NCBI GenBank assembly: GCA_016874035.1 | Contig: VGVM01000019.1 | Span: forward strand, 1 to 40,388 | Source of the DNA: Gemmatimonadota bacterium | GTDB taxonomy: Bacteria > Gemmatimonadota > Gemmatimonadetes > Gemmatimonadales > Gemmatimonadaceae | DNA length: 40,388 nucleotides | Reading direction: 5' to 3' | In this document: positions 5,455 through 6,952 of the stretch, piece by piece | Position numbering within the stretch: the first letter of the stretch is position 1 | How the letters are laid out: each line of letters opens with the position of its first letter | Made by a program: the position numbers and the translations under genes | The notes under the pieces: generated by a model | What the model was told of the DNA's origin: nothing | Database searches by the model: none | The model's input: the letters and a program-made list of their open reading frames with translations, nothing else

Positions 5455-6425
5455 GTGCCATGCCGCGTGCGACGCGGGCGACGGACCTGGGTGGCCCGCT
5501 CCAAGTGGCGTCGGCCGACATCCCCGAACTCAACCGCGTGTTCAGCGAGGCGTTCACCGAGCGCTACCGCCGCGACGGACTGATGGGGGTGCGCGTGCCG
5601 CCGTTGAATCCCGCGATCTGGGAGTACGCGATTGCGGGCGCAGGCGACGGCGCGATGCTCTGGCGGGATCGCGAGGGCACGATCGCGGCGTTCAACCTCG
5701 CCCACGCCTCCGGCACCGAAGGATGGATGGGCCCGCTTGCCGTACGGGAGGATTACCAGGGCGCTGGGATCGGCAAGGCGATCGTACGCGCCGGGATCGC
5801 GCACCTGCAATCGAAAGGGTGCCGCACGATCGGGCTCGAGACGATGCCGCGCACCGTGGACAACATCGGGTTCTACGGCGGGCTGGGGTTCTCGCCCGGG
5901 CCCCTCACCGTCACCGTGACGCTGGACGCGGCGGCGGGAACCGGCGTCGCGGGGCTGTGGTCCGCGATGTCTGCGAGCGAGCGCGACACCACGATCACCG
6001 GCTGCCGCGCGCTCGCCGATCGCCTGAGCGCTGGCGCAGACTTTACGAACGAAATCCTGCTGACCCATTCCCTCGCCCTGGGCGACACGGTGGTTGACGC
6101 CTCGCAGGGTTCCGTGCGGGGCTTTGCCGTATGCCACGCGGCGCCCCTGATCGAAGGCCGGTCGCGCGAGGAACTGCGCGTCCTCAAGCTCGTCGCGGCG
6201 GACGAGGCGTCGTTCGCCGAGCTCCTCGGGCGACTGCGGATGCTGGCGCGGCGCTGCGCCACGGTGCGCGCCACGATTCGCATGCAGGGCGAGTTTCGCT
6301 CCGCGTTTCGCCGCGCCATCGAGGCGGGTGCGCGCGTTCGCTGGACCGACCTGCGCATGACGCTCGACGGCTATCCGGAGCCGCCGAACCGTCCAGGTGT
6401 CGTGCTGTCCAACTGGGAGATCTGA
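5451..6425 (+). CDS. GNAT-family N-acetyltransferase with a C-terminal extra domain
   Basis: The 324-aa protein has an N-terminal GNAT fold whose acetyl-CoA loop is visible as VREDYQGAGIGKA (Q103 to G108). IGLETMPRTVDNIGFYGGLGF follows at the usual place for strands 5 and 6. Residues from about 165 onward form a second domain that resembles the degenerate C-terminal GNAT half seen in some large acetyltransferases (GFAVCHAAPLIEGRSREELRVLKLVA). The substrate cannot be told from sequence. The ATG overlaps the sbcC stop (ATGA); a second ATG at 5460 is also possible. Coupling to sbcDC is suggestive, but could simply reflect operon packing. No signal peptide is seen, so it should be cytosolic. Confidence 0.8.
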   Translation: MSAMPRATRATDLGGPLQVASADIPELNRVFSEAFTERYRRDGLMGVRVPPLNPAIWEYAIAGAGDGAMLWRDREGTIAAFNLAHASGTEGWMGPLAVREDYQGAGIGKAIVRAGIAHLQSKGCRTIGLETMPRTVDNIGFYGGLGFSPGPLTVTVTLDAAAGTGVAGLWSAMSASERDTTITGCRALADRLSAGADFTNEILLTHSLALGDTVVDASQGSVRGFAVCHAAPLIEGRSREELRVLKLVAADEASFAELLGRLRMLARRCATVRATIRMQGEFRSAFRRAIEAGARVRWTDLRMTLDGYPEPPNRPGVVLSNWEI

Positions 6426-6438
6426 CGCCGCCTGGCGG

Positions 6439-6603
6439 TCAGCGCTTGCCGGTCGCCGCTGGGTTCCCGCGCGCCACGACGCGCCAGATGAACAGGAACA
6501 CGCCGGCCGTCAGCAGCAGGTGCACCCAGCCGCCGATCTCGAACCACGTGCCGGCCGCCCACACGAGCAGCAGCACGATTGACGCGACGATTCCGAGGTC
6601 CAT
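6439..6603 (-). CDS. small two-helix membrane protein, Lmo0937/DUF5670-like
   Basis: The 54-aa product begins MDLGIVASIVLLLVW and has two hydrophobic helices (about residues 3-20 and 27-45) separated by a short glycine-containing turn (FEIGGWVHLL). It ends in a basic tail (ARGNPAATGKR). This layout matches the small Lmo0937/DUF5670 membrane proteins, whose function is unknown. I took the internal ATG at 6603 rather than an upstream one at 6657, because the extra 18 residues are polar and would precede the first helix. The gene converges with the acetyltransferase gene and starts next to the promoter of the 6S-like RNA, which runs the opposite way. The assignment rests on pattern only. Confidence 0.6.
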   Translation of the reverse strand: MDLGIVASIVLLLVWAAGTWFEIGGWVHLLLTAGVFLFIWRVVARGNPAATGKR

Positions 6604-6633
6604 GGTTTCCGTCAATTCTAGTGCGTCGCGCGC

Positions 6634-6662
6634 TGGACGCCCACCGCACCCACCCATACCTT
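6634..6662 (+). promoter_or_regulatory. sigma-70-type promoter of the 6S-like RNA
   Basis: TGGACG (6634-6639) and TACCTT (6657-6662) are separated by exactly 17 nt. The predicted first transcribed base, seven nt after the -10 box, is G6670, which is also the first base of the RNA's closing stem. That agreement between two independent signals is the main support. Neither box is perfect. Confidence 0.5.
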
Positions 6663-6669
6663 TGGCTCA

Positions 6670-6816
6670 GGAACGAAGAGGCCGACGTTTTGAGCCGATA
6701 AGTCCTTCGGGTGGGTTCGATATCTTCGTTGACGTCACGCCCGCACGGCGGGAAGGCGGAAGGCGGGGTGAGGACCTCAGACATTCGACAGGGCTTCAAA
6801 ATCCCCTCTTCGTTCC
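6670..6816 (+). ncRNA. ssrS: 6S RNA candidate (RNA polymerase-binding regulatory RNA)
   Basis: The ends form a perfect 12-bp closing stem: GGAACGAAGAGG (6670-6681) pairs with CCTCTTCGTTCC (6805-6816). A second helix pairs TTTTGA-GCC (6688-6696) with GGC-T-TCAAAA (6792-6801), leaving one bulged T. A third pairs GTCCT (6702-6706) with AGGAC (6771-6775). Between helices two and three lies an asymmetric opening: GATAA on one side and CTCAGACATTCGACA on the other. The apical part is GC-rich. This is the long interrupted hairpin with a central bubble that defines 6S RNA. The string TGAGCCGATA at the entrance of the bubble also occurs at that place in Escherichia coli 6S RNA, as does a CAxxxGACxxACATTC-like stretch opposite. 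At 147 nt it is shorter than the 180-190 nt usual in proteobacteria. 6S RNA mimics an open promoter and holds sigma-70 RNA polymerase in stationary phase. Confidence 0.72.
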
Positions 6817-6828
6817 ACTCCATTCATC

Positions 6829-6860
6829 GGAAGCTCCGGTCGCTTGCGGCCGGAGCTTCC
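6829..6860 (+). terminator. perfect 14-bp hairpin with CTTG loop after the 6S-like RNA
   Basis: GGAAGCTCCGGTCG is followed by CTTG and then CGGCCGGAGCTTCC. The arms pair throughout with one G-U wobble, and CTTG is a stable tetraloop. It starts 12 nt after the 3' end of the 6S-like RNA and lies 92 nt before the pterin operon. There is no T-run behind it (GTCACTAGC follows), so it could be a terminator that works without a T-run, a 3' processing or stability hairpin, or a leader structure of the next operon. Confidence 0.5.
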
Positions 6861-6952
6861 GTCACTAGCAGCGCTGCTCACGTTCCCGGCGGTCGCACAC
6901 GATCCGCCGGGAGCCGGAACCCGAAGTTCGGGCGGCGCGTAAGGGGGCTCCA

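Follow-up and report, generated by a model that had tools for sequence, protein, structure and literature searches.

A probable single-copy 6S RNA gene (ssrS) in a Gemmatimonadaceae bacterium

The locus and its neighbours

The window, by which we mean the whole 40,388-nucleotide stretch of DNA that was analysed, carries a conserved structured RNA at positions 6670-6816 of the plus strand. Upstream of it is a gene for a GNAT acetyltransferase; downstream are the gene for 6-pyruvoyl tetrahydropterin synthase (PTPS), whose reading frame the RNA precedes by about 136 bp, and then folE. The measured span of the RNA is 147 nt, the same length that had been given in an earlier note on this DNA. The plus strand was assigned because many of the base pairs are G-U pairs on that strand. 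Divergent from the RNA gene, a 54-aa membrane protein, MDLGIVASIVLLLVWAAGTWFEIGGWVHLLLTAGVFLFIWRVVARGNPAATGKR, is predicted at 6439-6603 on the minus strand, with a weak match to DUF5670 (21.4 bits against a cut-off of 23.5).

The earlier note had also proposed a promoter with a predicted start at the first base of the stem. The -35-like hexamer TGGACG (6634-6639, +) is followed after 17 nt by the -10-like hexamer TACCTT (6657-6662, +), which reads TACATT in most homologues; together they put the start at about 6670. The footprint T[TG]GAC...TAC..T is conserved upstream of the homologues, its T[TG]GAC part being kept in 14 aligned upstream regions. A strict consensus sigma-70 scan calls neither hexamer at the locus. 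Behind the RNA lies an inverted repeat, GGAAGCTCCGG...CCGGAGCTTCC (6829-6860, +), seen as a self-match on the opposite strand; it is terminator-like but has no T run. The strict scan does not call this repeat as a terminator, and hairpins are found at its position in many homologues.

In beta- and gamma-proteobacteria, ssrS commonly lies immediately after zapA (PMC7641849), and the order in E. coli is zapA-ssrS. Neither zapA nor fau adjoins the RNA of the window. In two other genomes of the class (G104 and G110), zapA is directly upstream of the RNA on the same strand, and in G107 the end of a ZapA gene (PF05164, 52.9 bits) lies a short way upstream. The gene order of E. coli, with zapA first, is found in deep-branching members of the class. 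Synteny with fau was sought through PF01812 (5-formyltetrahydrofolate cyclo-ligase), which matched in none of 41 relatives, including the genome of the window, and in 11 of 14 control genomes; the cyclo-ligase was either lost or replaced in the order.

Fold, covariation and pRNA template

Folded as a single sequence, the window RNA does not stand out from its shuffled versions (z = -1.34, with 16 out of 200 shuffles equally good). In spite of this weak fold, structure beyond chance is present, because the homologues show compensatory pairing. We aligned 53 homologous sequences without structure and then derived a consensus fold of 45 pairs. Standard pairs fill 95.6% of the pair cells in this family alignment, against 88.7% in shuffles, and when the consensus fold was slid along the alignment, pairing was at most 58%. 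Both-sided changes occur in 25 of the 45 pairs (10.7 in shuffles), and not one of 500 shuffles reached any of the five measures of the family structure test. Class-wide, in an alignment fitted to the model, compensatory changes are found in 37/45 pairs, and again none of 500 shuffles was as good. The covariation check suggested in the earlier note thus came out strongly in favour of the fold.

The RNA has a rod-shaped fold composed of a closing stem, helix P2, a central bubble and an apical arm with a hairpin. The perfect 12-bp closing stem described earlier is present, also in the predicted fold: its 5' arm GGAACGAAGAGG (6670-6681, +) pairs with the 3' arm CCTCTTCGTTCC (6805-6816, +), which is the exact reverse complement, and compensatory changes between the arms are seen in 9 of 10 modelled pairs. 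P2, the downstream duplex, is formed by the 5' strand UUUUGAGCC (6688-6696, +), which is also the predicted pRNA template, and the 3' strand GGGCUUCAAAA (6791-6801, +). P2 has compensatory changes both in the family and across the class; in the model-fitted alignment, for instance, 18 sequences have A-U in place of U-A. The apical arm and the 3' side of the central bubble extend over 6707-6789 (+) and have covarying helices in both alignments; the arm is capped by the hairpin CCCGC-ACG-GCGGG at about 6740-6752 (+).

Covariation also supports an alternative helix, in which AAGUCCU (6700-6706, +) can pair with AGGGCUU (6790-6796, +), the latter being shared with the P2 3' strand. Within the family this helix has 23 both-sided cells, against 9.3 in shuffles. 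P2 and the alternative helix are both conserved. Another small hairpin in the 3' bubble, GUGAG/CUCAU, is well conserved but competes with better-supported helices; we make no claim for it. A candidate '-10-like' motif, UACAUU, was seen in the 3' bubble. The RNA L137 (G107:C251, minus strand) is a divergent 6S RNA directly after zapA; its P2 is AAATTTCGAT/ATCGAAATTT, compared with the T-run/A-run usual elsewhere.

Published start positions of the pRNA are U44 in E. coli and C40 in B. subtilis (PMC8876501). The string TGAGCCGATA at 6691-6700 (+), which had been reported as common to the window RNA and E. coli 6S RNA, is indeed found with the same ten letters in the annotated E. coli ssrS, and the conserved TGAGCC(GAT/AAC) occupies the site of the pRNA template in E. 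coli 6S RNA. The start template is predicted to be U30 of the window RNA (6699, +). Of 93 homologues, 92 have a T or a C at this position, a count that takes in L113 and L140 (both C); the exception is L137. The predicted pRNA of the window RNA would read 5'-AUCGGCUCAAAACG, with the 5' end 5'-AUCGGCUCAAAA..., and the E. coli pRNA as read from the ssrS sequence begins AUCGGCUCAGGGGA; the first 9 nt of the two are identical. Judged by sequence conservation, the 5' bubble strand contains a putative pRNA template with a pyrimidine as its start base.

Distribution and identity of the RNA

6S RNA, a small RNA of wide occurrence in bacteria, mimics an open promoter and thereby blocks RNA polymerase. 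We built a covariance model, R1, from the 53 homologues of the window RNA. R1 matches the window RNA with 156.8 bits (E 5.7e-37), and this is its sole match in the window. By DNA similarity, the locus matches 57 of 99 related genomes, nearly all of them within the family. R1 reaches further: of 246 genomes searched in the class, 220 have a match, nearly always a single one, so that the RNA is widely conserved with one gene per genome. Among the matches listed, three class members (G039, G226 and G269) have two each, which may be second 6S RNA genes or assembly effects; B. subtilis is an example of a bacterium with a second 6S RNA gene. In a sample of 121 genomes from the phylum, R1 has matches in 108; outside the class, one of six genomes gave a match, and a weak one. 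The assignment of the DNA to Gemmatimonadota, which the earlier note had made with reserve, is confirmed by exact matches of a conserved core motif in a species-genome collection: all 30 are Gemmatimonadota, many are named Gemmatimonadaceae, and one is named Roseisolibacter, a genus of the Gemmatimonadaceae.

At gathering scores, Rfam gave no match in the window. With permissive settings, the 6S RNA model RF00013 scores 16.7 bits at 6688-6801, far below its cut-off of 46.4; other Rfam families that scored low at the locus were rejected as chance-level. Among the same 246 genomes, RF00013 has matches in 8 at E 0.01 and scores above the cut-off in 2 (about 1%), in a search run with stricter filters than a locus-by-locus scan. 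In the latter scan, four class members score above the cut-off at the R1 positions (L136, 56.6; L117, 53.6; L137, 53.3; L115, 51.4 bits), and therefore both models meet on the same RNAs. The RF00013 search that had been suggested as a check thus fails for the window copy and succeeds for homologues of the same RNA, so that homology to the Rfam family is established through the relatives. The miss of the window copy reflects weakness of the Rfam model.

In the 4 kb of E. coli DNA that surround ssrS, R1 scored 24.1 bits (E 4e-5) inside the annotated gene, and its next best match there had 8.6 bits. Four lines of evidence consequently tie R1 to 6S RNA: the overlap with RF00013, the match to E. 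coli ssrS, the gene order with zapA, and the pRNA template motif. The reading of the locus as 6S RNA, already put forward in the earlier note, is supported by RF00013 on the homologues, by R1 on E. coli ssrS and by covariation. We conclude, with a probability of about 0.96, that 6670-6816 (+) is the single-copy 6S RNA gene (ssrS) of a Gemmatimonadaceae bacterium, with a predicted promoter of its own.

The score of the window copy far below the RF00013 cut-off would also fit a polymerase-binding structured RNA that is not 6S RNA by descent, such as an Ms1-like binder of the core enzyme. However, homologues of the RNA pass that cut-off, R1 finds E. coli ssrS, and both the pRNA template and the zapA synteny match 6S RNA, which makes such an origin very improbable. 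The position of the RNA just upstream of the PTPS frame could suggest a cis-acting element, namely a leader or attenuator of the PTPS-folE pterin operon, or else that the RNA is where the upstream gene ends. We find this hardly credible, because in other genomes the RNA stands next to unrelated genes, with zapA upstream in the deep members, and because the RNA has a promoter footprint of its own and, in many homologues, a hairpin behind it.

Since long open frames cross the RNA on both strands (6131-6868, + and 6374-6823, -), it might instead be part of a protein-coding gene. Open frames are, however, common in such G+C-rich DNA, and neither frame has a Pfam match. In addition, the indels among the homologues are not multiples of three, and the changes are paired and compensatory. 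The chance that the segment is coding is negligible.

Proposed mechanism and comparison with known systems

By analogy with known 6S RNAs, the following mechanism is proposed. The 6S RNA gene would be transcribed from its own sigma-70-type promoter, and the RNA would fold to the rod of closing stem, P2, central bubble and apical arm. As in E. coli and B. subtilis, it would bind the holoenzyme with the housekeeping sigma factor as an open-promoter mimic and thereby lower transcription when nutrients are short. When NTPs are available again, transcription would begin on U30 (6699), and the polymerase would move back along the 5' strand through GCC and P2. The resulting pRNA, 5'-AUCGGCUCAAAACG..., would open P2 and free the GGGCUU strand for pairing with AAGUCC, which lies immediately past the start site, and the RNA would be released.

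Two types of release have been described (PMC8876501). In the first, found in E. coli and other gamma-proteobacteria, a long hairpin forms in the 3' bubble; in the second, found in B. subtilis and A. aeolicus, the distal 5' bubble pairs with the P2 3' strand in a central bubble collapse helix (PMC8876501). The alternative helix of the window RNA has the pairing of the second type. Class-wide, its best pairing score is 15.6, against 14.4 with partners swapped among sequences (highest 14.9 in 300) and 11.1 with the 5' strand shuffled, although relatedness among the sequences inflates these class-wide tests. In energy predictions for 51 sequences, the alternative helix had a mean pairing of 0.40, which rose to 0.79 once the template was blocked as by a 14-nt pRNA. 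Because the alternative helix covaries, beats swapped and shuffled partners, and gains pairing when the template is blocked, we favour release of the B. subtilis type with moderate confidence.

The role of the alternative helix as a switch is putative, and the same energy prediction suggests that in the window RNA the helix is mostly formed already in the free state. This raises the idea, which we consider rather unlikely, that in the free 6S RNA of Gemmatimonadota a collapse helix, formed beforehand, keeps most of the central bubble shut and leaves the start region GCCGAUA bulged. The free-state bubble of E. coli and B. subtilis 6S RNA is described as open. If the idea is true, the polymerase must open a pre-closed bubble on binding, and the ground state would be unlike the open bubble of those two species.

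These results indicate that a phylum widespread in the environment has a near-universal regulator of transcription that Rfam hardly ever detects there. The R1 alignment might serve as the seed of a new Rfam model or of a widened one. So far, the case for release through a collapse helix has come from probing of the structure and from mutants, in two lineages, and our result lends evolutionary support to this type of 6S RNA release. A search of a limited set of papers, without key 6S surveys such as the main one (Wehner 2014), gave none that joins 6S RNA with Gemmatimonas, Gemmatimonadetes or Gemmatimonadota; earlier reports are possible.

The window RNA resembles E. coli ssrS (RF00013) in its rod-like build (closing stem, P2, central bubble, apical arm), in the TGAGCCGATA template and the 9 nt with which the predicted pRNA starts, and, in deep-branching relatives, in the zapA gene upstream. 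It differs from E. coli ssrS in length (147 against 183 nt), in its U/A-rich P2, in having no sign of the E. coli 9-bp 3'-bubble hairpin, in its score below the Rfam cut-off, and in having neither zapA nor fau alongside. The likeness to B. subtilis 6S-1 and A. aeolicus 6S RNA is in the alternative helix, which matches the published central bubble collapse helix, and, for B. subtilis, in the pyrimidine start template, C40 (PMC8876501). In comparison with these two, the window RNA is compact, and GCCGAUA is bulged in its predicted free form. 6S-Flavo RNA (RF01685) is likewise a lineage-specific 6S RNA that was missed by earlier searches and found by comparative genomics (PMC2864571); it belongs, however, to Bacteroidetes, and RF01685 finds nothing at the 6S locus of the window, even with E values allowed up to 10. 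Ms1 RNA of actinobacteria is described as structurally related to 6S RNA (PMC9130861). Ms1 binds the core polymerase, whereas the window RNA can be aligned to 6S models and has retained the template motif of 6S RNA.
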